IMG/VR virus record: IMGVR_UViG_3300022222_000103
Span: 1 to 20,426 of that record
Length of the DNA: 20,426 nt
Source: a virus
Direction: 5' to 3' (one strand)
Under the pieces are notes generated by a model that had not been told where the DNA came from, searched no databases, and saw only the letters and a list, made by a program, of their open reading frames with translations. A program made the translations under genes and the position numbers. Shown one piece after another: positions 7,094 through 20,426 of the stretch (within the stretch, counting starts at the first letter, position 1; each line of letters opens with the position of its first letter).

Positions 7094-7119
7094 TCTACTT
7101 CTCAATTCCAGTAAGAATT

Positions 7120-7148
7120 GGCCCGAAGAAATTCGGGCCTTTTCTTTT
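7120..7148 (+). terminator. Intrinsic terminator after the capsid gene
   Basis: Perfect 8-bp stem GGCCCGAA (7120-7127) and TTCGGGCC (7132-7139) with a GAAA loop (a GNRA tetraloop), followed by TTTTCTTTT at 7140-7148. This is a textbook rho-independent terminator. It would end or reduce transcripts from the head genes before the sugar cassette. Confidence 0.9.
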
Positions 7149-7152
7149 GTCC

Positions 7153-7173
7153 GCGAGAATGCGAGAATGCGAG
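7153..7173 (+). repeat. Short tandem repeat, 8-base unit
   Basis: GCGAGAAT occurs twice in a row, followed by a partial GCGAG. It lies in the gap between the terminator and the RBS of the dehydratase gene. Flanking CCGC (7151-7154) and GCGG (7173-7176) could pair and would partly cover the RBS at 7175-7180. It may be simple slippage. Confidence 0.6.
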
Positions 7174-7174
7174 C

Positions 7175-7180
7175 GGAGGT
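7175..7180 (+). promoter_or_regulatory. RBS that sets the dehydratase start
   Basis: GGAGGT nine bases before ATG 7190. It shows that translation starts after the terminator, not at the in-frame TTG at 7118. Confidence 0.75.
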
Positions 7181-7189
7181 AGAGAGCTA

Positions 7190-8161
7190 ATGTTAACTGG
7201 GAAGGTGTTTATAACCGGGGGTGCGGGCTATTTGGCCCGAGCGATTTACAGACGAGCGCGACAAGAGAAGTGGGAATGTGAATTTACCTGCTTCTCGACA
7301 GATGATTCCAAACATGCTTTTCTGAATGAAATATACCCAGAAGTTAAATGCTATCGCGGAGATATTTCAGATACGCCAATCGACATTCTTTCGTCTTTAA
7401 TGGCCGATCATAAATATGTAATTCATGCGGCTGCAATTAAGTACGTTGATAGAGCTGAATTCAATGTCTGGGATACAGTGCGTGTAAATATAAAGGGCAG
7501 TGAGAATGTTATTCTCGCAGCGCACGCCGCTGGCGTAGAGCGTGCAATAGGAATCTCAACTGACAAAGCATGTGAGCCAATCAATATTTATGGAATGACC
7601 AAGGCTACAATGGAACGCCTTTTCATTGAGTCTTCTGGAAGATTCAGGAATACAGAATTTTCAGTTGTTCGCTATGGTAATGTTGTAGCCTCAACTGGTT
7701 CTGTAATCACTCTTTTTCGCAAGCAGGAAAAAGAAGGAATCATTAAGATTACAGATCCTAATATGACAAGATTTTGGATGACTCCTGATGAAGCTGTTGA
7801 TACTGTTCTTGCTGGTTTACTTATCTCTGAAAACGGTTCAATTCTCGTGCCTTCTTGTCGAGCAATGTCAATTATTGATGTGGCAAAAGCTGCGCTCACA
7901 GCAACTGGATCTAAGCTTGAAATCATTGGAAAACGTGCCGGAGAAAAAGTACATGAGAAACTGATTTATAAGCAGGAATCAGTTCGGTCAGAGATTGTCG
8001 TAACAGATAAGCTGAAACCCCCTTACGCTTTTTGGGAGATTTCTCAACCGCCTGCTGAAATTACATCACATGAATTTGAACTTTCTTCTGACAATCCAAA
8101 AGCTGGCCTTATTTCAATTGAAGAAATGCGAGACATTATCGCAGATTCAGAGACGATATAA
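7190..8161 (+). CDS. PseB/FlaA1-like UDP-sugar 4,6-dehydratase
   Basis: A 323-residue extended SDR enzyme. The start is ATG 7190, with GGAGGT at 7175-7180 nine bases upstream; the frame continues upstream to 7118 but only through the terminator. Motifs in order: NAD(P)-binding TGGAGYLA (9-16), IHAAA (78-82), STDKA (123-127), Tyr134-x3-Lys138, RYGNVVASTGSVITLF (161-176) and TRFWMT (193-198). The Thr-Asp-Lys triad eight residues before the Tyr, with RYGNV and TRFW, is characteristic of inverting UDP-GlcNAc 4,6-dehydratases (PseB/FlaA1) and CapD-like enzymes. These make a 4-keto-6-deoxy UDP-sugar. No membrane segments are present. The stop overlaps the next ATG (TAATG). The donor sugar is inferred from the family; the enzyme looks complete. 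Confidence 0.85.
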   Translation: MLTGKVFITGGAGYLARAIYRRARQEKWECEFTCFSTDDSKHAFLNEIYPEVKCYRGDISDTPIDILSSLMADHKYVIHAAAIKYVDRAEFNVWDTVRVNIKGSENVILAAHAAGVERAIGISTDKACEPINIYGMTKATMERLFIESSGRFRNTEFSVVRYGNVVASTGSVITLFRKQEKEGIIKITDPNMTRFWMTPDEAVDTVLAGLLISENGSILVPSCRAMSIIDVAKAALTATGSKLEIIGKRAGEKVHEKLIYKQESVRSEIVVTDKLKPPYAFWEISQPPAEITSHEFELSSDNPKAGLISIEEMRDIIADSETI

Positions 8162-8838
8162 TGCAAGGATTAGGAGTAATTCTTCTTACATATGATCGTA
8201 TGGACTATACAAAGACTACAATTAAATCATTTCTCAATAATATTAAAACCAAAGAGAAGATACATTTTCATATAGCAGATGATGGTAGCGGGACTGATTA
8301 TGTAAATGAGTTAATTGATTATGTTGGAGATTTTGGCATTAAGGCAACTTCTTCTAATTCTAATCGTGGTGGATACGGCGCAAATTACAATATGGCTACC
8401 CAAGTCATTCACTATGATTGCGACCTCGTATTTGTCCTTGAAGATGATTGGGAATTAAGAAGGGAATTTAACTTAGATCAATACTGTAAAGTAATTAGGG
8501 AAAATAAAGGAATAGATGCTATTCGATTTGGGTACATAGGATATACACAAGAATTGAAAGCCAAATTTGTATCTTCCCATGGTGAGCAATTTCTTCTTTT
8601 AGATCCTGATTCCCCTGAGCCTCATATTTTCGCCGGGCATCCACGATTAGAATCGGTTAAGTACCAGAGAGAAGTCGGGGAATGGCCTTTAAATGTTGAC
8701 CCCGGCACAACTGAATTTATGGTAGCGCATATCCCGCGATCAAGACGCGGAGTAGCTTGGCCGATTGATTTAGTACATCCACGCGGGGATTTGTTTTATC
8801 ATATTGGCACAATTCAAGCGCGAAGTGACCAGAAGTGA
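8161..8838 (+). CDS. GT2-type glycosyltransferase, 225 residues
   Basis: A small GT-A fold transferase. The N-terminus GVILLTYDRMDYTKTTIKSF is the first Rossmann-like strand and helix of family GT2. Asp40-Asp41 in IADDGSG should bind the nucleotide. A second cluster, NRGGYGANYN (68-77), matches the usual N-x-G-x-x-x-A-x-N segment. The metal-binding DXD equivalent is Glu94-Asp95-Asp96 in FVLEDDWE. The C-terminal HPRGDLFYHIGTIQA has the conserved His region of phage and bacterial relatives. It starts in the stop of the dehydratase gene and ends overlapping the next GTG by four bases (GTGA), so the three sugar genes look translationally coupled. Acceptor and donor are unknown. Confidence 0.82.
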   Translation: MQGLGVILLTYDRMDYTKTTIKSFLNNIKTKEKIHFHIADDGSGTDYVNELIDYVGDFGIKATSSNSNRGGYGANYNMATQVIHYDCDLVFVLEDDWELRREFNLDQYCKVIRENKGIDAIRFGYIGYTQELKAKFVSSHGEQFLLLDPDSPEPHIFAGHPRLESVKYQREVGEWPLNVDPGTTEFMVAHIPRSRRGVAWPIDLVHPRGDLFYHIGTIQARSDQK

Positions 8839-11519
8839 AAGTGTTTTTACAACCACGCGCATACGGTGTAGATGATGGACAAGGCGGAATTCGCCGAGTA
8901 GTTGAAGGGCAACAAGATTTTCTGCCGAAATACGGAGTTCAATTAGTTGATAAGATTGACGATGCAGATATTGTTGCATGTCATATTTCCATTCCTCCAG
9001 AATTTCTTAAGAGATTTCCTGAGAAGATTTTTGTAGCTCATTGTCATGGTCTTTATTGGCGTGAATATGAATGGGAAAAATGGACTCAAATTTCTAATAG
9101 AGAGGTAATGGAGTCTCTTAGGGTTGCCGATGTAATCACGGCACCTTCTCACTGGGTTGCCAGCGTAATTCGCCGCCATACCTCCCGTCCCGTTTATGCG
9201 GTGCCACACGGAGTCAGATTCTCAGACTGGAATACGGTAGAGAATAAGGGTTATGTCCTTTGGGATAAGACGCGCCCAGACCCGGTGTGCGATCCTCACT
9301 TAATGCAGGAAGTCGCGGCGCTTCTCCCTGATGTTCATTTCGTTTCTACTTTCGGAGAACCGAAGAAGAATGTTTCTATTGTTGGACATCAAACATTTGC
9401 TGAATCTCAGAAATTAACAAGCGAGGCAGCTGTATATCTTGCTACCAGTAGAGAGACATTTGGAATTGCTACTATTCAAGCCCTTGCATGTGGCGTGCCA
9501 GTTGTTGCTTATAATTGGGGCGCACACCCCGAGATTCTTACGCATAAAGTTGATTCCTATCTTGCCAACATTGAAGATCCAAAAGATCTTGCTAAAGGTA
9601 TTTTATGGGCATTAGAAAATCGAGCTATTATTAGTAAAGCCGCTCTTAAAACGGCACAACATTATACATGGGATAATGCCTGCAAAGAGTACGTAAGAAT
9701 CTTTCAAGAAGCCATTGATAAAAAAGCTGCATACAAGGCGGCACCGCGTACCAGCATTATTGTCACTGCATACAAACTGGATCAATATCTGGAAGAATGT
9801 CTAGACTCTGTGCTTAAGCAGTTTGATACAAACTGGGAGTGCATTATTGTTGATGATGCCAGTCCAGATAAGTGCGGAGAGATTGCTGATAAATATGCTG
9901 CTAAAGACAGTAGGTTTAAGGTAATTCATAATGAAACAAACCAATATTTATCTGGAGCTAGAAATATTGGGATTCAGGCAGCACGCGGTAAATACATTTT
10001 GCCGTTGGATGCGGACGATAAACTTACGCCACATGCTGTCAGAATTCTATCAGAAAGCCTTGATTCCAATCGTTCTATTCACATCGCTTACGGTAATGTG
10101 TATTTTGTTGACGAAGACGGTCATCCTAATGATTATGGATCAACTCCGGGCCATTCACAATGGCCGGTTAATTTTTCATGGGAGAAGCAAATCTCAAGAA
10201 TGAATCTTCTCCCGTATTGTAGCATGTTCCGTCGCGAAGTATGGGATTATACTGGCGGCTATAGAAAGCGCCTTAAGACTACGGAAGATGCTGATTTTTG
10301 GACAAGGGTATCTAGCTACGGATTCCGGCCTAAAATGGTTACAGAAGTAGATACTCTTATCTATCGTTGTAGAACTAATTCAATGAGCCAAACCGAAGGT
10401 CAATATGATTGGACAATTTGGTTTCCTTGGAGAAGGGAATTACAGAAAGCACCGGCGGGGTGTGTGTCGGAAACCCAGCTCTCTATACCGACATACATTC
10501 CGCCGGTACTTTCTGTAATTATTCCAGTCGGCCCGGGCCATGAAGAATTAGTAATGGATGCCATTGATTCTTGTGAAGCTCAGTCAATGCGACAATTTGA
10601 AACAATTGTCGTGAATGATTCTGGCAAGTCACTACACCTTCCTCAATGGGTACGATATTTCGAGGTAGAGAATGCGCCGCAAGGTGTGGCAAACGCTCGC
10701 AACATTGGTATTAGGGCAGCACACGGACTAAATATCCTACCACTGGACGCTGATGATATTCTACAGCCTAATGCTGTTAAGATATTCTATGAGTTTTCTC
10801 AAGTTAACCCAGGAGTTATTCTGTACTCAGATTTCTGGGAAGATCCAGATACAGAAGGTGCTTACAGAAGATTCTTTACTGATGACTATGAAGCCAGCCT
10901 GTTAGTTTCAAAAGGGGCCATAGCAACAGTTACGGCCTTAATCCCCCGAGAAGTATTTGAAAAAATCGGCCTTTATGATACAGATATGATTGCTTGGGAA
11001 GACTGGGCATTTATGCTTAAGGCAGCAGAGAACGGTTTCTGCTACGCCAGAATCCCCAAGCCATTATTTACATATCGTAAGCATACAGGGAGACGAGCTA
11101 AAGATAATTTTGAGAATAAAGACAAAAATAAGGAACAGATTTTAGCAAAGTTCGGTCATTTTTGGAACGGGAAGAAGAATATAATGGCTTGTAGTAAATG
11201 TGCACAGGGAAGAGCTAAGTCTCCAGATCCAATTGATGAAATGAATTTCAGGTCACAACAGAATATTTCTCCATCACTTGTTGGTGTTAAGGGAGAAATG
11301 ATTCTCATAGAATATTCAACAGAACGCCTAGCTGATGCTCAGTTTCGTGGGCCTAGCAATCAGCGATATAATTTCGCTAACGGTGATAGGAAATATGTCC
11401 TAGCCCAAGATGCATCATTCTTTTTCTCGATGGATGGGTTTAAGGATGCTACTCCGTTGCCAGAAGAAGACGAAATTCGCCCAATTCTTGTATCCAGTAA
11501 TCCATCGAAAATCAAATGA
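8835..11519 (+). CDS. Multidomain glycosyltransferase: GT-B + GT2 + GT2 + extra C-terminal domain
   Basis: 894 residues, GTG start in a GTGA overlap. Residues 1-290 form a GT4-like GT-B transferase with CHGLYWREYEW (70-80), VPHGV (123-127), and a donor-site segment SRETFGIATIQALACGVPVV (205-224). The EX7E motif has Glu207 but Gln215 where Glu is usual. Residues 306-525 form a GT2 domain: Asp340-Asp341, LDADD at 391-395 and TEDADFW at 483-489. Residues 548-760 form a second GT2 domain: VIIP, VND at 583-585, LDADD at 637-641 and WEDW at 721-724. The two GT2 parts share ARNIGI-x-AA-x-G-x2-ILPLDADD, suggesting duplication. Residues 786-894 have a CSKC knuckle and a beta-rich segment (MILIEYSTE ... 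RYNFANGDRKYVL) that is not glycosyltransferase-like and resembles a small domain found in some phage structural proteins. Soluble, no membrane segment. Confidence 0.82.
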   Translation: MKVFLQPRAYGVDDGQGGIRRVVEGQQDFLPKYGVQLVDKIDDADIVACHISIPPEFLKRFPEKIFVAHCHGLYWREYEWEKWTQISNREVMESLRVADVITAPSHWVASVIRRHTSRPVYAVPHGVRFSDWNTVENKGYVLWDKTRPDPVCDPHLMQEVAALLPDVHFVSTFGEPKKNVSIVGHQTFAESQKLTSEAAVYLATSRETFGIATIQALACGVPVVAYNWGAHPEILTHKVDSYLANIEDPKDLAKGILWALENRAIISKAALKTAQHYTWDNACKEYVRIFQEAIDKKAAYKAAPRTSIIVTAYKLDQYLEECLDSVLKQFDTNWECIIVDDASPDKCGEIADKYAAKDSRFKVIHNETNQYLSGARNIGIQAARGKYILPLDADDKLTPHAVRILSESLDSNRSIHIAYGNVYFVDEDGHPNDYGSTPGHSQWPVNFSWEKQISRMNLLPYCSMFRREVWDYTGGYRKRLKTTEDADFWTRVSSYGFRPKMVTEVDTLIYRCRTNSMSQTEGQYDWTIWFPWRRELQKAPAGCVSETQLSIPTYIPPVLSVIIPVGPGHEELVMDAIDSCEAQSMRQFETIVVNDSGKSLHLPQWVRYFEVENAPQGVANARNIGIRAAHGLNILPLDADDILQPNAVKIFYEFSQVNPGVILYSDFWEDPDTEGAYRRFFTDDYEASLLVSKGAIATVTALIPREVFEKIGLYDTDMIAWEDWAFMLKAAENGFCYARIPKPLFTYRKHTGRRAKDNFENKDKNKEQILAKFGHFWNGKKNIMACSKCAQGRAKSPDPIDEMNFRSQQNISPSLVGVKGEMILIEYSTERLADAQFRGPSNQRYNFANGDRKYVLAQDASFFFSMDGFKDATPLPEEDEIRPILVSSNPSKIK

Positions 11520-11815
11520 TAGAACACATTTTAATCGCCGGGTTCGCCGGTTGGCGCGCGTCGCGGTTGCTGGTCTATGAGGCTGGCCCCGGTAATCTGT
11601 TCGGGCGCATCAGGGCCGCGTGTGGCGTCCCGGACGGCCCCGGGGAGATACGACCGCTCCCATTCCTTGGCCCGCTTGTTTCGTGTGTGCCTTGCGCGTC
11701 CGTGTGGCTCTCGGCGGCGGCATGGGGAATTGGCGCTTGGCTGGGTTGGATGCCAGTAGCTATCGCGGCTGCTTGTGGAGTAGCATTGATGCTAGAAATA
11801 CACGTCAAGGAATAG
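11516..11815 (+). CDS. DUF1360-like small membrane protein
   Basis: 99 residues, starting with ATGA overlap of the glycosyltransferase stop. The pattern WRASRLLVYEAGP (13-25), then Arg-Ile-Arg, then LVSCVPCASVW (54-64, with Cys57, Cys60 and Trp64), fits the DUF1360 family of phage and bacterial proteins of unknown function. Residues about 62-95 are hydrophobic (Ala, Trp, Leu, Ile) and should form one or two membrane segments. Base composition is striking: by hand count 11581-11760 is about 68% G+C, against about 38% in the line after the gene. This suggests separate acquisition. A role in the host membrane is inferred from the hydrophobic tail only. Confidence 0.65.
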   Translation: MIEHILIAGFAGWRASRLLVYEAGPGNLFGRIRAACGVPDGPGEIRPLPFLGPLVSCVPCASVWLSAAAWGIGAWLGWMPVAIAAACGVALMLEIHVKE

Positions 11816-11818
11816 ACT

Positions 11819-13072
11819 ATGGCTATTGCTTCAACTCCTACAAAATTATCACTCTCTCAATTTGCAAAGATTATGGGCCTTCATCCATTACATTTTGAGG
11901 GAGTATATGTCGCTGATCAATCTCATTGTGGCTCCGCATGGTTTCAATATGATTGGCAGAATTTCCAACGAGTTAGCCGTGAAACAATTGCACGCGCAAT
12001 TATGGATGCGGAAAATCAGATAGAAGACTTTTTAGGATATAATCTTCTTCCTGACTGGACTATTGATGAACGAGTTCAAACAAGTAGACCATTTTATAAA
12101 GACCTTGTAAATTATGGCAATGGCAATATGCGAGGATATGGACAAACAATTAGACCAGTAAAAAATTGGTTTATTTCTGGTGGTATGCGAGAAGCAACTG
12201 TCATAAAATTATCTTCCATTATTACATGGACAGATCAGGATTCTGATGGGTATTTTGAAACCGGCACAGTATCTGCAATTACAACTGTAGAGGATGATTG
12301 TGAAGTTCGCGTGTTTTATCCAGCTAAGTCTGGAGATAATCTTTGGGAAATCAGGCCAGCCAGAATTTCGATTAGCGGAGGAACAGTTACCGTTACCTTT
12401 CGCCGAGAATTATGTGTACTTGAATCGATATTAGAAATGGTTCAAGACCCTGCCCAAAACGCATTTGCGGATGGATTGAATAATGCAGACTTTCTTACAA
12501 CAGTTGATATTTATCAAGTAACAAATAATCCAGCCACTTCCGCTAATTTGCTATGGGAGCCTACTGGCAACTGTGGCTGTTCTGTAAATAATTCATGTGC
12601 CGAGTGTGCGTATCAAACACAAACTGCATGTTTAATTGCTAGAGATCCCAGGCTTTCAATTGTAACATACTCTCCGGCAGCATGGGATACTGTTACTAAG
12701 CAGTTTGATTTTCAATCATTATCCATAGGCCGCCAACCAGATCAATTAAGAACATGGTATTATTCTGGATATAAGTGGCAGCAATCAATTTGCCCAAATA
12801 AAGAAATAGATCCATTCTGGGCGCAAACTATTTCTTATTTTGCAGCATCAATGCTAGAGCGAAATCCTTGTGACTGCAATGGAGAATTCTTCGAGCAGTT
12901 TAGGGAAGATATGGCATTTGTTAATGGCGCAGATCAATTGAATAGATATGAGATTCGTCGAGCAGAATTGACAAATCCTTTTGGATCAAGACGTGGAGCA
13001 TTGATGGCATGGATTCGTGTTAAGAATCGACAAATAGGAAAGGTTGGCGCTGGCGGCGCTGTGATAGTTTAA
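11819..13072 (+). CDS. Putative head-tail adaptor, Cys-rich
   Basis: 417 residues from ATG 11819, with AAGGA at 11807-11811 seven bases upstream. Residues 53-78 (SRETIARAIMDAENQIEDFL followed by GYNLLP) resemble the first helix pair of gp6/gp15-type head-tail connectors, in which short proteins cap the portal. The rest is beta-rich and longer than a standard connector. It contains a Cys cluster: C252, C254, C260, C263 and C271, then C325, C341 and C343 (NPCDCNG). These could bind metal or form disulfides. It lies between the sugar cassette and the tail genes, where connectors are expected. The end overlaps the next ATG (TAATG). The connector call rests on the N-terminal helices and position. 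Confidence 0.55.
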   Translation: MAIASTPTKLSLSQFAKIMGLHPLHFEGVYVADQSHCGSAWFQYDWQNFQRVSRETIARAIMDAENQIEDFLGYNLLPDWTIDERVQTSRPFYKDLVNYGNGNMRGYGQTIRPVKNWFISGGMREATVIKLSSIITWTDQDSDGYFETGTVSAITTVEDDCEVRVFYPAKSGDNLWEIRPARISISGGTVTVTFRRELCVLESILEMVQDPAQNAFADGLNNADFLTTVDIYQVTNNPATSANLLWEPTGNCGCSVNNSCAECAYQTQTACLIARDPRLSIVTYSPAAWDTVTKQFDFQSLSIGRQPDQLRTWYYSGYKWQQSICPNKEIDPFWAQTISYFAASMLERNPCDCNGEFFEQFREDMAFVNGADQLNRYEIRRAELTNPFGSRRGALMAWIRVKNRQIGKVGAGGAVIV

Positions 13073-13353
13073 TGAGGCAAGTTTTACATGTAGATCATTA
13101 TGGCCGAAAAACTCTATATGCAATTCCTAATGATGCTCCAGATCACCATGCAACAATGGGAATTTTTATAGGGCCGCCATCTTTGGAAAAATTAAGTCTT
13201 CCTCTTGAAATCGAAGTGCGAATAAATAATGCCTTATTCGACAGGGGAATTATCACTCAACGCGACGTAGAGAGAAAGCCAAATGAAGTAAATTCTGCCA
13301 TTCAGTCGGCCTTGAAGGTGGACGCGCAGAGAATAGCGGCGCTGTACTTTTAG
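13072..13353 (+). CDS. Small conserved-looking phage protein, unknown
   Basis: 93 residues, coupled to the adaptor gene by TAATG. The sequence has an N-terminal basic, His-containing part (VLHVDHYGRKTL), then LPLEIEVRINNALFDRGIIT and a helical C-terminus (SALKVDAQRIAALYF). The central LEVR-x-NNALFDRG-like stretch is reminiscent of small proteins that follow connector genes in several siphoviruses, but I cannot name the family. Between connector and tube genes the usual products are neck or tail-terminator proteins, so that is the best guess. No membrane or signal segment. Confidence 0.55.
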   Translation: MRQVLHVDHYGRKTLYAIPNDAPDHHATMGIFIGPPSLEKLSLPLEIEVRINNALFDRGIITQRDVERKPNEVNSAIQSALKVDAQRIAALYF

Positions 13354-13420: not shown

Positions 13421-14935
13421 ATGCCCGCTCGTACCGAGAAATTACTCAAAACAAGCTATTCAAGAGTCTTCACACAAGAAGGGGGAGCAGGCCCGAGCAA
13501 TCCGCCAGTCTATCAAGGACTTGCACGGGCAACTGGCGTAGCTTGGCCGCAAGGAGATATCTCTCCTATTCGTGTGCCATCACGCGATAAGTATGATCGC
13601 TTTGATGTTGCTACTACTATTCAGGGACAACAGGGACTTCCTTCCTTGTCTCTTGAATTTAGAATGCAGCAGACTCTTTCTGATGTTCTTCGATTTGTCA
13701 AAAAGGGCTGCGAAATCGACGTTCATGTCCACATTGGAGCTTGCCAAAAGCCTGATGATTTTAACGGCGGATGGGCTGATGGAAAGGCGATTGTTCTTTC
13801 GCAAGCGCAACCTACGGACTATACCACAGACGACTTAGGCGCTCTTGATTCAGATCAGCGTGCAATCGTTATGGAGACTGTTCCATTTACTGGTCTTGAT
13901 TACAATGAAATTGCTCCTATTAAGCCGGAGGAACAAGCAGCGTCAATTATTAGTGATGAAATCGTAGGTATTAAAATCTGCGATTCTATTGCGTGTGGCG
14001 AATGCGGACTTCCTTCCGATGGCTGCCAAGTAATTTTTGCACTTCAAGCCGAATCGTCCGGCTCTCCCGGTATCTCTGCTGCCGTACTCTATTCCGTAGA
14101 TGGTGGTTCCAATTGGACAAAGAGTCTTGTGTCGTCTCTTCCGATTGGACAGGATGCAACTGCAATCGCCTGTGTTGGCACCAGACTTGTTGTTGTTTCT
14201 AATTCTGACTTGTCCTTGCATTGGGCCGACATTGCCGATGTCGTAGCCGGTGTGGGAGTATGGACGCGAGTAGCCACTGGATTTGTTGCATCAAAGGGGC
14301 CAAATTATATTTTCTCGGCTTCCGCTACCGAAACATGGATCGTAGGCAATGGCGGCTATGTCTACACGACTGCCGATCCGACTGCGGGCGTAGAAGTCCA
14401 GAGTTCTGGCGGCGCAACTGTCCAGAATCTTCTTTACATTCATGGTATCGACCAGAATTCACTCGTTGCCGTGGGCGTTTCTAACGCAGTTCTCGTTACC
14501 AGTAATGGCGGGGAAACTTGGTCTCTAGTTACTGGCCCGGATGCTGGCGTGCAATTGAATACAGTTGCGATGAAATCGTCTCAGGTATTCTTGATTGGCA
14601 CTGATGCTGGTAAGATGTGGTATACACTTAACGGTGGCGACACATGGGTTGCAAAGGCATTCTCAGGGACGGGTTCTGGTAAAGTTAAGGATATTGTTTT
14701 TGCGAACAAGAATGTTGGCTATATGGCCCATTCTACGACCGCACCCGCTGGTCGAATGTTTCGAACGATTGATGGCGGATACTCTTGGTATCTTCTTCCT
14801 GAACAAGCCGGGGTGTCCTTCCCGACAATTGATCGCATCAATGCTATCGCTGCCTGTGAATCCGATGTAAATGTCGTATTCGGTGGTGGATTGAATGCCG
14901 ATGGAGCCGATGGAGTAATCGTTAAAGTAGCATAG
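13421..14935 (+). CDS. Putative tail tube protein with Asp-box beta-propeller
   Basis: 504 residues. Residues 1-180 look like a tail tube or major tail protein (RVFTQEGGAGP, LSLEFRMQQTLSDVLRF, a closing MVTP-like VMETVPFTG). The position just before the chaperones and tape measure agrees. A Cys-rich linker follows (C187, C192, C195, C202). Residues 205-504 are a repeat domain with four clear Asp-boxes: SVDGGSNW (225-232), SNGGETW (361-367), TLNGGDTW (402-409) and TIDGGYSW (449-456). Two degenerate copies lie near 265-275 and 310-320, giving about six blades of about 45 residues. This resembles YCF48/BNR-like propellers. It could decorate the outside of the tail and bind host sugars. AGGAG at 13404-13408 is 12 bases before the ATG, rather far. 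No sialidase Arg triad is obvious. Confidence 0.72.
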   Translation: MPARTEKLLKTSYSRVFTQEGGAGPSNPPVYQGLARATGVAWPQGDISPIRVPSRDKYDRFDVATTIQGQQGLPSLSLEFRMQQTLSDVLRFVKKGCEIDVHVHIGACQKPDDFNGGWADGKAIVLSQAQPTDYTTDDLGALDSDQRAIVMETVPFTGLDYNEIAPIKPEEQAASIISDEIVGIKICDSIACGECGLPSDGCQVIFALQAESSGSPGISAAVLYSVDGGSNWTKSLVSSLPIGQDATAIACVGTRLVVVSNSDLSLHWADIADVVAGVGVWTRVATGFVASKGPNYIFSASATETWIVGNGGYVYTTADPTAGVEVQSSGGATVQNLLYIHGIDQNSLVAVGVSNAVLVTSNGGETWSLVTGPDAGVQLNTVAMKSSQVFLIGTDAGKMWYTLNGGDTWVAKAFSGTGSGKVKDIVFANKNVGYMAHSTTAPAGRMFRTIDGGYSWYLLPEQAGVSFPTIDRINAIAACESDVNVVFGGGLNADGADGVIVKVA

Positions 14936-14938
14936 GAG
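14934..14938 (+). promoter_or_regulatory. RBS of the small basic gene
   Basis: AGGAG six bases before ATG 14945, overlapping the tail tube stop. A nearer ATG at 14940 gives only Met-Pro-stop, so 14945 is the start. Confidence 0.7.
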
Positions 14939-14944
14939 TATGCC

Positions 14945-15109
14945 ATGAATATGAGTCAGGATTTAGCTCTTCAGCATAAAGAGTTTTCCCGGCTAAAATA
15001 TGATGGGCATAACCGACGTTCGATTCAATCTTCTATGAAGAAGATGCAACACCGTAGGTCTCGTAGGAGTTTTCAATCTAAGTTACGCCTATCAGTCTCG
15101 CTGTGGTAA
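14945..15109 (+). CDS. Small basic protein, 54 residues
   Basis: An ATG at 14945 follows a perfectly spaced AGGAG. The protein ends at TAA 15107-15109. It starts MNMSQDLALQHKEFSRLKYD and becomes strongly basic, with KKMQHRRSRRSFQSK in the middle and a hydrophobic LSVSLW end. There is no Cys, signal or membrane segment. The RBS and its fit into the gap between the tail tube and chaperone genes argue that it is real. I do not recognise a family. Such short basic proteins may bind nucleic acid or a tail protein, but nothing in the sequence decides this. Confidence 0.6.
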   Translation: MNMSQDLALQHKEFSRLKYDGHNRRSIQSSMKKMQHRRSRRSFQSKLRLSVSLW

Positions 15110-15127
15110 GATGGCACCTAGCAAATT

Positions 15128-15133
15128 AGGGAG
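15128..15133 (+). promoter_or_regulatory. RBS of the tail chaperone gene
   Basis: AGGGAG six bases before ATG 15140. It lies in the loop of a weak 5-bp hairpin, CTAGC (15118-15122) with GCTAG (15133-15137), which may be chance. Confidence 0.6.
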
Positions 15134-15139
15134 CTAGAA

Positions 15140-15811
15140 ATGCCAACACCAATCGCACCAAAAAGAAGGCCGCGTGTCCAGAAAGAGGAACCGCGGCCTT
15201 CTGATTTTAATTCTCAATTAAATGAGATGATTAAAAACGGACAAAAAGAAGCTCAGGTTACCCTGACTAATGGAATCATTATTCAGACTAAGCCAATTTC
15301 TCAGGATGCTATTCGTAGGATTATTGATAGAGTTGATAAGCCTACAATTCCAGTAGTCTTTATAGACTCTAGGGATCGTGAAGAGGAAAATCCTAACGAC
15401 CCTGACTATCTTGATGCGCTTGAAAAATATCATTCTGATATTTTGAATAAAGTATATGATGCTATGTTTATTCTTGGAACTTCTTGTGCATATGTTCCAG
15501 AAGACTACTACAAGCCTGAATCAGAAGAATGGGTTCAATTTCTTGGAGTAGCTGGCATAGAAATAAACAACGAGAATAAATTTACAAGGTATCGAGATTG
15601 GCTTAAGCTCTATGCATGTAGTTCTCAGTTCGATTATTTTCAACTAACTTCCGTACTTTATCGCAGAGTTGGTGTAATGGAAAAGGAAGTCATCGACGCG
15701 ATAGGATTCTTTCGGAGTAGAGAGGATGGGGGAGCCATTGTCGAACTTCCAATTGAAGGGAATGAATTCGGGGATAACAATCAAGCCAATGATACCGGGG
15801 ATAGTATCTGA
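15140..15811 (+). CDS. Putative tail assembly chaperone (first frame)
   Basis: 223 residues, well-placed RBS. The protein begins with a basic, Pro-rich N-terminus (APKRRPRVQKEEPRP), continues with mixed helical and charged segments (PDYLDALEKYHSDILNKVYD), and ends in an acidic Asn/Asp-rich tail. It lies directly before the tape measure gene and overlaps a second frame, the classic arrangement of lambda G/T-type chaperones. These keep the tape measure soluble and guide tube polymerisation and are not in the mature virion. The sequence itself has no diagnostic motif; the call is mostly from context. An overlap of 107 bases with the open second frame (from 15705) allows programmed frameshifting. 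Confidence 0.65.
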   Translation: MPTPIAPKRRPRVQKEEPRPSDFNSQLNEMIKNGQKEAQVTLTNGIIIQTKPISQDAIRRIIDRVDKPTIPVVFIDSRDREEENPNDPDYLDALEKYHSDILNKVYDAMFILGTSCAYVPEDYYKPESEEWVQFLGVAGIEINNENKFTRYRDWLKLYACSSQFDYFQLTSVLYRRVGVMEKEVIDAIGFFRSREDGGAIVELPIEGNEFGDNNQANDTGDSI

Positions 15812-16004
15812 ACTTGAAGAACGAGACGCGGCGAAATTTAGTCTGATACCTTGGCCTGATTTTAAAGTTATGAATCGTCTTGAAAAGGCTGACGTAATCG
15901 CTTACTTCCGAATTCGCATGGAAATAGACGCTCATACAAATGACGAAATGACTAGGCGAAGAGAGCGAGAAGCGATAAGGGATCGCGCGAAGCAACGGCA
16001 ATAG
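15726..16004 (+). CDS. Putative tail assembly chaperone, second frame
   Basis: The frame is open from 15705 and ends at TAG 16002-16004. From ATG 15726 it gives 92 residues; GGAG at 15714-15717 lies eight bases upstream. Other in-frame starts are ATG 15762 and ATG 15789. The conserved-looking part is LIPWPDFKVMNRLEKADVIA and a very basic, charged helix (RREREAIRDRAKQRQ). It lies just upstream of the tape measure and in the +1 (or -2) frame relative to the first chaperone. It may therefore be made as a C-terminal extension by frameshifting at the G-run 15728-15732, as a separate protein, or both. The function is inferred from the lambda-like arrangement. Confidence 0.65.
   Translation: MGEPLSNFQLKGMNSGITIKPMIPGIVSELEERDAAKFSLIPWPDFKVMNRLEKADVIAYFRIRMEIDAHTNDEMTRRREREAIRDRAKQRQ
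15728..15732 (+). promoter_or_regulatory. Candidate programmed frameshift site
   Basis: GGGGG in the overlap of the two chaperone frames. In the first frame it reads GAT-GGG-GGA-GCC. A glycine tRNA on GGG can slip +1 onto GGG, or one on GGA can slip -2 onto GGG. Both place the ribosome on GAG in the second frame. No downstream structure was confirmed. Confidence 0.4.
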
Positions 16005-16050: not shown

Positions 16051-19000
16051 ATGGCGGGCACATCTGGCTTTGGTGACAGTATCCAAACCGTCGGCGTAAA
16101 CATTGTAGCCACGGGCGGGGCAACATATACCCGACAAATCAATGCTGCGATCAATTCAACAAATCAACTTGCACAAGCTACTACTAAAGTTGGACAGGCT
16201 TCCGAGACAAGCACATTCAATATAGTCAAATTTAGTGCGGCAGTTGCCGGTATTTATACTGCCGGTCGCTTCGCTAGAAATATGATGATTCAAACAGTTG
16301 GAGCGGCGATTGCATTTGATGATGGTTTCACAGGGGTTCGCAGAACAGTCGATGGAACAACTGAACAACTTAATGAGCTTAAGCAAGGGTTTCGAGATTT
16401 AGCTAAAGAAATCCCACTTCCTGTTGGAGAACTTCTTAAAATTGGTGAAGCGGCTGGCGCGCTTGGCATTGCCAGAGAAGATGTTCTTGAATTCACCAAG
16501 ACAGTTGCTATGCTTGGTGCCACTACAAACATTACAAGTGATGATGCCGCTAGATTCCTGGGAAAATTCTCTGCAATTGTAGGAGCAACTTCTAAAGATT
16601 TTGGCAGAATTGGCGCAGTAATGGTCGATCTTGGAAACAAGACGGCTGCCACGGAAACAGAGATTGCTAAACTTGCACTTAGAATAGCAGGTGCCGGTAG
16701 TGTTGTCGGCCTAACAAATGCAGACATTCTTGCTCTTTCTGCCAGCCTTGCTTCCGTAGGAGTATCCGCTGAAAAGGGCGGGTCAGCAGTATCTCGTATT
16801 CTTATTGCGATAGAGAGTGCGGCTCGTTCTGGCGGTGCTGAGGCTGCTAAATTCGCAGAAGTGCTTAAGCTTACTGTTGAACAATTTATTGCACTTCAAC
16901 AGTCAGATCCCGGTGCAGTGCTTAATGAATTTTTTGCTGGCATTAAGCGGATAACTGATTCTGGTCAGAATACATTTGCCCTTCTTAAAGAACTTGGCCT
17001 GAATGAAATTCGCGTTAGAGATACCATTCTTCTTGCATCACAGGCGACAGGTCAATTTACTGAAAATCAAGCTATGGCAAATGACCAGTATAAAGCTGCG
17101 AATGCCTTGGTCGCAGAATTTGGTAAGAGAACCGAATCTCTTGCTTCGAAAATCCAGCTACTTAAAAATCGCGCCTTAGATGTTGGCATTACTTTCGGAA
17201 CGGAACTTGCACCCGGCCTTATCAGTTCTGGAACGGGAATGGCGAATCTACTTGAACTGATTGTCCCGCTTGCCGGTGGGCTAGGAACAGTTGCATCTAC
17301 TTTGCCGACGGTTATTACTGGATTTATATTACTTGGAACAGTAATTGGCGGAATAAAACTTGCCGCATTCATAGCACAGATTCTAGCAGTAACACAACAA
17401 CTAATGATTAGTGGAATTGCAAGTCGAAGCGCGGCACTTGGCATGGCTACATTTACGAATGTTGGTACGGGTAGTGCTGCATTAAAAATGGGTCCAGTTA
17501 TGCTTGGAATTGGTGCTGCTCTTATTGGGATTGATATTGCTACACAAAATATAACTGGTCACAGTCTTATTGACTGGTTTACCGGGGCGGCACAGGCGGC
17601 TAATAGGGCAACTGAGCAATTTAAGCAATTTGGAAGTAGTCAAGAAAATATTGAACGGTTAATGCGCGAAGGATTTACAGCAAGTGAAGCTGTAAGTTCT
17701 CAAGCAATTAAAAGCGCACAAGAATTAGTAGATGTATTATCTCAGTCAAAAGATTTAGATATAACACTTAGATTTGGATTTATTCCAGGTGTTATAAATA
17801 AACAAGCAGAAGATATTGAACTTCTTAAAAATAAGTTAATAGAACTTAAGCTTCCATATAAAGACTTACTTGCATTAACAGAAAAATATCCTGCTATTGC
17901 AGCTATAATGTCTTCTGAGCTTGAAAAGCAAAAGATTGCATTTGATGAAACAGGTAAAAAGGCAAAAGTATTTGCAGGCAATGTTAAATTATCTGGCGAA
18001 GATATAGGCAAAATATCTAAAAAATTCGGCGATCTTTTCGCTGATATTTTGCCAAATCTCAATAAGTCTACTGCTGATATTAAGAAGGAACTTGCTGCCC
18101 TTACTGAGGCATGGAGAAATGAAGCTGGAAATCAAGCATTTTTATCCGATCAACTTTCTAGGAAAAATATAAAGAATTTTGATCAAATTGTTGCAGCCAT
18201 TGCTTCAAAAGGGCCAGAATATCTTGCTCAGTTTGTAGAGTGGTATTCAGAGCATCCAGATGAAGTTCTAGAACTATTTGGCGTTGCTGCTCCTAAAATT
18301 ATGGATCAAGCAGTATCAGATATTACTGATTCAATGGCTAATCCTGATGTAGATGCGGCTGATGCGATGCATATTGGAATAACTGGACCAGCATTGAATC
18401 AGTTAATTATTGATGGCAATATAATGTCAGAAACGTCTAGGCAAATTGCAAATAATGTCATAAGTAATATCATGAATGCTAGGCGCGCTTTCGATGGTAT
18501 TGCAATAGGAGCAGATGGAAATATAATTAGCACGGCAGGCAATTCTGGAAAATGGCAAGGTCCAATACAGCCAATAGATAAGTTAGAAAATAAACTTAAT
18601 AGATATGGCGGCGGCGGCGGCGGCGGTAAAGCTGATAAACCAGACATCACCGCGATTCAGGCGTTTATTGCTCTCGCAGAAGATCGAATAAAACAAGCAG
18701 CATTAGAAGTAGTATTTAGTGAAGCTGGAGCCAAGGCAATTATGGCATTCAATAAGGCCATAACTACTGGATCTGAATCCGACGGTAAAGCTGCGTTTGA
18801 TACTATCGTAGCTATTGTCGAAAAGGCGAAAGAGGATAACGTGCCCCACGCCTACGAAATGGGGCAAGCGATCATCGACGCTTTTATCCGGGCATATCAG
18901 GAAGGCACGCCAGAGGCTGCCAGCGCGTTCCACGACTCTGTTTATGCCCTGACAGGGGGTAGTGGTGCGGTAAGCGTAAATCAGGCGTTTGCGGACGCTC

Positions 19001-20426
19001 TGAAAGCCAACATATCGCACGACCTCCACGCCGAAGCCATGACTGAAATCGGGGCCAATCTGTGGGAACAATTAGCAGAAACAGTTAAGCATCCTACCCC
19101 TGAGAATGCAAAGGCTCTTGCTAACGGAGTAGATGAAATGATTGAGCAAGGTCGTAAATATAAAGTTCCTAATATTGAAGCGATTGGATTAGAATTAGGT
19201 GTCCTTGTTGGAAATGCGCTTGCTGAGGGATTTGACGGGCCAGCAACCGCTAAATTAAGAGAAGCCCTTATTCGTCTTGGGCAATCTACCAAAGCTAAGA
19301 TGGCAGGAATTGGACAAATAACAGCGGCTACATTCACAGAGGCTTTTGAGATTGGAATGAAGCATGGAGACCTCGTTCGCCGTGTGGGTGGCAGTGGGGC
19401 GCGCTTAATCGAGACTCTTATGATGGGAATAAAGGAAAAGAAGCCAGAAGCTATTGCAGAAGTTGGTTCACTTGCTGCTGACATTATTTCAGAGCTTTTT
19501 CTTAATGGAGATATTACAGCAGCAGAAGCGGCTTTCTATGGCGCTGCTATTCCGAAGGCAATTGCTCTCGCTATATCCACAGGTAGCCCGGAGGCATTTA
19601 AGGCACTTGAAGATCTGTTTGCTGGGCTTTGGGCTAGATTGAAAAGAAAGCCATCTGCAACCGAGGGAATAAACATTGGCCCCGGCCCTGAAATAAATGC
19701 TGAAAAAACAACAGGCACAGGTGGATCAGATGCTGTTGATGATGCTCGTCAGAATCGTATCGAAGAATACGATGCTCTTGGCGATGCCATAATGGAAGCA
19801 CTTCGCCGAAGATATAGGGCCGAAGAGGATCTTCAACTTGAATCTATTAACAAGCAAAAAGACGAACTAGAAAAGTGGACTAAGGATCAGATTGAGATTC
19901 GCTCTAAGCCATTGCAGGATGAACTTGATGCAATGGACAAGATTGAAACTGATGGTAGGGAAGCTGATATTCGCCGACGTCTTGCACTTGCTTATGATGC
20001 ACGAGACCGTAAGAAAGTTCAAGATGAACTTGATGCATTCCTTCGTGGTAAGCGTAAAGATGAAATTCGTGATCAACTTGGTATCATTCGTGATCAAGTT
20101 GAGGCAGAGGCAAAACTTAAGCGCGAAGCATTAGAGGCTCAGGAAAAAGCAATCCGCGAAAGTTATGAGCGACTTCTTTCTGATGCCAATCTTCAAGCGG
20201 AAGCATTGCTACTAATTCAAAGCCATAATCAGCAAGCAATGATTGACTTGATTAAGCAGTTTTATCCCGATTGGAATCATACAGGTCAATCATTAGGTGA
20301 ACAACTTGTTGATGGACTTCTTTCTAGCGGAATAGAAGATACAATTTCTGGCCTTCTGTCAGGTGTTAACTCAATAATTGATCGCATAAATGTTTTGAAC
20401 GCCACGCCTGTTGGGGGTGGTGGGGG
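16051..20426 (+). CDS. Tail tape measure protein (cut at right edge)
   Basis: The frame is open from ATG 16051 to the last base, at least 1458 residues. A GTG at 16039 with AGAGAG (16027-16032) six bases before it is an alternative start. The protein sets tail length and takes part in DNA ejection. Residues about 85-335 match the TP901-type core: FDDGFTGVRRTVDG, GEAAGALGIAREDVLEFTK, ATETEIAKLALRIAGAG, then ASVGVSAEKGGSAVSR. Residues about 400-490 are hydrophobic and Gly/Ala-rich, probably membrane-active. A run of seven glycines lies at 853-859. Residues about 1250-1395 form a charged coiled coil. At about 1.5 angstrom per residue the tail would be at least about 220 nm. Composition varies within the gene (near 28% G+C around 17701-17820, about 60% around 18841-18960). 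Confidence 0.9.
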   Translation, partial: MAGTSGFGDSIQTVGVNIVATGGATYTRQINAAINSTNQLAQATTKVGQASETSTFNIVKFSAAVAGIYTAGRFARNMMIQTVGAAIAFDDGFTGVRRTVDGTTEQLNELKQGFRDLAKEIPLPVGELLKIGEAAGALGIAREDVLEFTKTVAMLGATTNITSDDAARFLGKFSAIVGATSKDFGRIGAVMVDLGNKTAATETEIAKLALRIAGAGSVVGLTNADILALSASLASVGVSAEKGGSAVSRILIAIESAARSGGAEAAKFAEVLKLTVEQFIALQQSDPGAVLNEFFAGIKRITDSGQNTFALLKELGLNEIRVRDTILLASQATGQFTENQAMANDQYKAANALVAEFGKRTESLASKIQLLKNRALDVGITFGTELAPGLISSGTGMANLLELIVPLAGGLGTVASTLPTVITGFILLGTVIGGIKLAAFIAQILAVTQQLMISGIASRSAALGMATFTNVGTGSAALKMGPVMLGIGAALIGIDIATQNITGHSLIDWFTGAAQAANRATEQFKQFGSSQENIERLMREGFTASEAVSSQAIKSAQELVDVLSQSKDLDITLRFGFIPGVINKQAEDIELLKNKLIELKLPYKDLLALTEKYPAIAAIMSSELEKQKIAFDETGKKAKVFAGNVKLSGEDIGKISKKFGDLFADILPNLNKSTADIKKELAALTEAWRNEAGNQAFLSDQLSRKNIKNFDQIVAAIASKGPEYLAQFVEWYSEHPDEVLELFGVAAPKIMDQAVSDITDSMANPDVDAADAMHIGITGPALNQLIIDGNIMSETSRQIANNVISNIMNARRAFDGIAIGADGNIISTAGNSGKWQGPIQPIDKLENKLNRYGGGGGGGKADKPDITAIQAFIALAEDRIKQAALEVVFSEAGAKAIMAFNKAITTGSESDGKAAFDTIVAIVEKAKEDNVPHAYEMGQAIIDAFIRAYQEGTPEAASAFHDSVYALTGGSGAVSVNQAFADALKANISHDLHAEAMTEIGANLWEQLAETVKHPTPENAKALANGVDEMIEQGRKYKVPNIEAIGLELGVLVGNALAEGFDGPATAKLREALIRLGQSTKAKMAGIGQITAATFTEAFEIGMKHGDLVRRVGGSGARLIETLMMGIKEKKPEAIAEVGSLAADIISELFLNGDITAAEAAFYGAAIPKAIALAISTGSPEAFKALEDLFAGLWARLKRKPSATEGINIGPGPEINAEKTTGTGGSDAVDDARQNRIEEYDALGDAIMEALRRRYRAEEDLQLESINKQKDELEKWTKDQIEIRSKPLQDELDAMDKIETDGREADIRRRLALAYDARDRKKVQDELDAFLRGKRKDEIRDQLGIIRDQVEAEAKLKREALEAQEKAIRESYERLLSDANLQAEALLLIQSHNQQAMIDLIKQFYPDWNHTGQSLGEQLVDGLLSSGIEDTISGLLSGVNSIIDRINVLNATPVGGGG
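18607..18627 (+). repeat. Trinucleotide repeat coding for seven glycines
   Basis: (GGC)6 followed by GGT, in frame in the tape measure gene. It encodes a flexible linker and marks a change from AT-rich to GC-richer DNA. Length variation by slippage is possible. Confidence 0.85.
19918..20097 (+). repeat. Heptad-spaced DNA repeats in the tape measure coiled coil
   Basis: GATGAACTTGATGCA occurs at 19918-19932 and 20023-20037, 105 bases apart (35 residues, five heptads). ATTCGTGATCAA occurs at 20065-20076 and 20086-20097, 21 bases apart (one heptad). The exact copies suggest recent growth of the coiled coil by duplication or similar codon use in repeats. Confidence 0.6.

Follow-up and report, generated by a model that had tools for sequence, protein, structure and literature searches.

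A probable siphovirus-type tail tube protein with a predicted seven-bladed propeller in a group of uncultured phages

In this study we analysed a window of 20,426 bases, which is the complete sequence of an IMG/VR virus record and probably a fragment. Its 504-amino-acid target protein is likely a siphovirus-type major tail protein, with residues 1-186 as tube domain and residues 187-504 as an outer propeller that forms an integral coat on each subunit. The domain architecture, the gene order, the constant pairing of both domains, their conservation and the covariation of cysteines support this reading. In such a tail residues 1-186 would build the tube subunit and the seven-bladed propeller would sit outside the tube on every subunit, rigidly held as an integral part of it rather than as an optional adhesin. 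The window holds terminase genes, a presumed portal gene and genes for an HK97-gp10-like protein and a presumed capsid protein, followed by a sugar cassette; on the tail side it holds the genes for a 417-amino-acid and a 93-amino-acid protein, the target gene, two overlapping ORFs and a tape measure gene that is cut off (Table 1).

Table 1. Features of the target gene and its neighbourhood (positions in the window).
Feature	Position	Strand	Basis
Very probable tail tube protein (504 aa) whose propeller is constitutive	13421..14935	+	Intact ORF; 66 distinct full-length homologues
N-terminal domain, residues 1-186, presumed tube domain	13421..13978	+	AF2 strand/helix order
C-terminal seven-bladed (predicted) Asp-box propeller, residues ~187-504	13979..14932	+	Profile matches, AF2, Foldseek, shuffles
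Four-cysteine loop C187, C192, C195, C202 at domain boundary	13979..14026	+	Covaries with C251, C97, C108, C479
Asp box, blade 1, near-canonical SVDGGSNW	14093..14116	+	Sequence, shuffle test
Degenerate Asp box, blade 2 (residues ~270-281)	14228..14263	+	Canonical in distant relatives (alignment)
Degenerate Asp box, blade 3 (residues ~316-327)	14366..14401	+	Canonical in distant relatives (alignment)
Asp box, blade 4, TSNGGETW	14498..14521	+	Shuffle test
Asp box, blade 5, TLNGGDTW	14624..14647	+	Shuffle test
Asp box, blade 6, TIDGGYSW	14765..14788	+	Shuffle test
Tail assembly chaperone, frame-0 ORF, 223 aa	15140..15811	+	Tail gene order
Putative +1 frameshift site TTT_C (ttc ttt cgg)	15710..15713	+	Same place in 34 loci
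Chaperone extension, +1 frame	15714..16004	+	Second overlapping ORF
Tape measure protein, at least 1458 aa, ended by record end	16051..20426	+	PHROG tape measure, E=1.9e-72
417-aa protein	11819..13072	+	Conserved position
93-aa protein, gene between those of the probable adaptor and the tube protein	13072..13353	+	Conservation
Sugar cassette	7118..11519	+	Named by eye from sequence; neighbourhood conserved
Sugar cassette: epimerase-like	7118-8161	+	Named by eye
Sugar cassette: glycosyltransferase-like, two ORFs	8161-8838 and 8835-11519	+	Named by eye

The Asp-box propeller

The Pfam family PSII_BNR matched the protein (E=1.4e-8), and a family profile of 11 sequences reached the solved Ycf48 propellers with E=6.6e-14. 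An AlphaFold2 (AF2) model built with 43 aligned homologues (pLDDT 92.4, pTM 0.90) separated the N-terminal domain from the propeller, which was modelled with high confidence over residues ~205-503, and the best solved matches of the full model in Foldseek, where propeller matches dominate the top 50, were again Ycf48 structures with TM scores of 0.72-0.76 normalised by target. The seven-bladed propellers of Ycf48 and HCF136 have the same fold and Asp-box repeats; however, they are photosystem II assembly factors, whereas the propeller described here is fused to a phage tail protein and shares 12-15% identity with them in the structural alignment. As Asp-box propellers also include sialidases and glycoside hydrolases (GH), and GH74 enzymes appear low in the Foldseek list of the full model, the domain could be an enzyme digesting host polysaccharide along the tail. 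We consider this highly improbable, as the best matches are the non-enzymatic Ycf48 propellers and no sialidase or GH family matched above the cut-off.

Three strict Asp boxes (residues 360, 402 and 449) and a near-perfect one (residue 225, SVDGGSNW) were found; when residues 201-504 were shuffled 20,000 times, no shuffled sequence contained more than one Asp box. At the two blades that are degenerate in the window protein, the distant relative L037 carries the canonical motifs YSDDNGATW and YSSDGGATW. Such canonical counterparts in distant relatives identify both degenerate boxes as real relics. The propeller of about 300 residues with four clear and two degenerate Asp boxes, as given in a preliminary description of the sequence, was thus confirmed by Pfam, AF2, Foldseek, the shuffles and the alignment with distant relatives. 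The count of six blades in that description has to be extended: the six Asp-box blades are present, but the strand order in the model points to an additional blade without an Asp box at the C-terminus (residues 470-503; blades assigned from the AF2 secondary structure string), so that the predicted number is seven.

Tail gene order and the presumed tube domain

From its context the 504-amino-acid protein is very probably the tail tube subunit. In all 34 loci that were read, the gene lies directly 5' of two overlapping chaperone ORFs, which are followed by the tape measure gene and, in L005, L007 and L011, by a gene for a Dit-like protein. The genomes of HK97, Bxb1, JBD30 and lambda have the identical tail gene order. 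A scan seeded with the chaperone only identified 24 loci, and the target gene was directly upstream in each of them; when the N-terminal domains of distant members alone served as seeds, every protein found also had the propeller. Both scans were seeded from known members, and the linkage was therefore tested within the group rather than across all phages. Moreover, the codon usage of the target gene was the most capsid-like of all genes in three of three genomes whose capsid gene could be recognised, a result that presupposes that the 482-amino-acid protein is indeed the capsid protein. None of five Pfam tube families was detected in 12 relatives of 35-102 kb. The gene just 5' of the target encodes a protein of ~93-120 amino acids or a neck-type protein, and no other gene between adaptor and chaperones suits the role of a tube protein.

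The N-terminal domain itself (to residue ~186) had no sequence match in PHROGs, Pfam or PDB, and its alignment with the single tube sequences of lambda, HK97, Bxb1 and JBD30 by hhalign was no better than the controls. AF2 predicted with high confidence beta strands, a single helix at residues 88-95 and further strands. Canonical major tail proteins (MTPs) consist of a beta-sandwich with one helix and a long beta2-beta3 loop (PMC8718954); the predicted order is compatible with this arrangement, which is weak evidence for a tube fold. The missing sequence match to known tubes would also suit another reading, in which the protein is a decoration or minor tail component that happens to occupy this slot, while the tube itself is the product of a gene elsewhere or of one that was not recognised. 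This is quite improbable in our view, as no other gene between adaptor and chaperones qualifies, no known tube family occurs in the 12 relatives and the codon usage resembles that of an abundant protein. The earlier assignment as a tail tube protein is upheld on contextual grounds by gene order, codon usage, tandem paralogues and the lack of a rival tube family; a tube gene elsewhere, which had been named as the finding that would speak against it, did not appear among the five Pfam families in the 12 relatives.

The tape measure protein of lambda comprises 853 amino acids. The lambda tail contains about 192 copies of its tube protein (PMC5009743). Scaled to the tape measure of at least 1458 amino acids, this gives at least about 330 subunits in the phage described here. 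Six subunits per ring would then display a thick, knobbed outer coat along the tail. The proposal of hundreds of propellers per tail thus agrees with the scaling, but the number is an extrapolation from tape measure length.

The second chaperone ORF is in the +1 frame in 34 of 34 loci, and each of these chaperone genes has an in-frame TTT followed by C, the codon after TTT being CGG, CGC, CGA, CCA, CCG, CAA or CAG. Of the 142 Phe codons elsewhere in the same ORFs, 63 are TTT, and a C comes next after nine of these. Judged from the sequence, TTT_C is a putative conserved +1 frameshift site of the UUU_C type. Such a P-site type has been demonstrated for influenza PA-X, and a wider class of these sites has been predicted (PMC3498833).

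Besides, the neighbourhood shows several further features. The 417-amino-acid protein is probably a head-tail adaptor carrying a large internal insertion, and profile searches returned no family match for it. A small putative membrane protein with a CxxC motif is encoded at 11516-11815 and is kept after the glycosyltransferase in many loci. An unusual gap of 204 bases (14936-15139) precedes the chaperone gene, and a small ORF for a basic product may run from 14946 within it. A scan for promoters and terminators gave a signal near chance.

Conservation of the propeller and covarying cysteines

Across about 65 related fragments of uncultured viruses the propeller was always present. We collected 66 distinct full-length homologues; all 66 have the propeller in frame and none consists of the N-terminal domain only. 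No close homologue was found by tblastn in 50,697 annotated phage records, and there was no PHROG match. Matches of the same search in Caulobacter phage KSC, phiVC8/VP5, Marinobacter phage PS6 and others were rejected as unrelated propellers, none of which lies in the tube slot where this was examined; genome-scan matches beyond L046-L050 were mostly other Asp-box proteins without the N-terminal domain. The BFVD entry A0A1P8DJ39 (497 amino acids) matched the structure over its full length (TM 0.72/0.73) and is therefore probably a distant member, going by the model comparison; tblastn in phage records did not recover it.

The mean identity was 0.396 for the propeller versus 0.316 for the N-terminal domain, and the propeller was the more similar part in 821 of 903 pairs. 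Neither face of the propeller is hypervariable. These observations argue against a rapidly diversifying receptor binder and bear on the possibility that the propellers form an adhesin array, in which a surface glycan of the host or a polymer of its envelope would be bound by hundreds of weak sites, allowing the phage to slide along the cell. Tail extensions of lactococcal 936 phages carry carbohydrate-binding modules, one of which bound host cells (PMC6669499), and the outer domains of SPP1 and T5 have been proposed to act in this way (PMC8718954). However, the propeller was never lost or swapped in the 66 sequences, and its conservation exceeds that of the tube domain. The argument from conservation would not apply if the ligand were an envelope polymer that is itself conserved, so that an adhesin array deserves serious attention as a possible reading, albeit one that we do not favour.

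Among the 66 sequences the cysteine pairs 187/251 and 202/479 were kept or lost jointly in 66 cases and the pair 108/195 in 64, counts that are inflated by shared ancestry, whereas Cys 97 and Cys 192 were both present nearly always. C202 belongs to blade 1 and C479 to blade 7, so the two may serve as a latch for the ring. Disulfides 108-195 and 97-192, which the sequences suggest, would tie the tube domain to the propeller. Disulfides in phage tails have a precedent in phage Milano (PMC10811340); zinc binding by the covarying cysteines is an alternative. Taken together, the constancy, the conservation and the cysteine covariation speak for a rigid coat that is an integral part of the tail, rather than for an adhesin that evolves fast.

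Two tandem target-type copies occur in L006, L011, L037 and L039. Full-length tube-propeller genes lie in tandem in L011 (7998-11001), L037 (7968-10907) and L039 (7968-10896), and such phages possibly build mixed tubes. In L006 (7202-9478) the tandem paralogue has 758 amino acids and extends through a proline-rich linker into a C-terminal Laminin_G_3 (ConA-like) domain (E=7.4e-9). The added domain fits an outward-pointing C-terminus and would also be in line with an adhesin array.

The sugar cassette and comparison with known tails

The sugar cassette lies between the presumed capsid gene and the tail genes and is kept in the main clade. Where main-clade loci extended far enough upstream, a homologue of the 894-amino-acid glycosyltransferase was present there in essentially every case. 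The propeller could therefore be the acceptor of sugars from the phage's own glycosyltransferases, which would result in a glycan-coated tail. Yet the distant relatives L037, L039, L041 and L042 carry the propeller and have no related glycosyltransferase within ~8 kb upstream. Moreover, the target of the cassette could be the capsid, and since cassette and tail genes form one syntenic block, their linkage may reflect shared descent. We therefore regard the propeller as an unlikely acceptor. The preliminary description had named the propeller as a possible site of action of the cassette; the neighbourhood is conserved in the main clade as this would suggest, but the four distant relatives do not follow, and glycosylation of the tail by the phage's own cassette is a hypothesis. 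We are equally sceptical about a more elaborate two-layer, non-contractile tail, in which the propeller shell would be fixed by cysteines (97-192, 108-195), the ring latched (202-479) and the shell serve both as armour and as glycosyltransferase acceptor.

Returning to the integral coat, an outer domain C-terminal to the tube domain is likewise found in lambda gpV, T5 pb6, YSD1_22 and JBD30 with Ig-like domains and in SPP1 gp17.1* with an FN3 domain. The genes of these Ig- or FN3-decorated MTPs, too, come just ahead of the chaperone and tape measure genes. However, their decoration is small, whereas the propeller of ~300 amino acids is larger than the tube domain and was present in every member found. 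The MTP of lactococcal 936 phages with TpeX (470-530 residues) has a comparable total length and a large C-terminal module on the tube. In contrast to the in-frame, constitutive propeller, TpeX is BppA-like, made by frameshifting on part of the subunits and missing in many phages. As a rule, the tail decorations known so far can be dispensed with or vary, which counts against an integral coat. Literature searches did not turn up a tail tube that bears a propeller.

As an integral coat the propeller would probably shield or stiffen the tube, and it may also touch the cell envelope weakly and multivalently. Tails of this group are probably coated with hundreds of propellers, a design that is absent from the annotated collections searched; the protein is well conserved and unusual, yet it belongs to a known kind, of which it is a variant. 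Known tube decorations are small or optional, whereas here a propeller of 300 residues would be an obligatory part with slower evolution than the tube domain. The reading leads to predictions about tail width, disulfides and glycosylation, and it would offer a dense natural display scaffold. If it is true, a group of uncultured phages would build a second, outer protein layer into their tails as a basic element.
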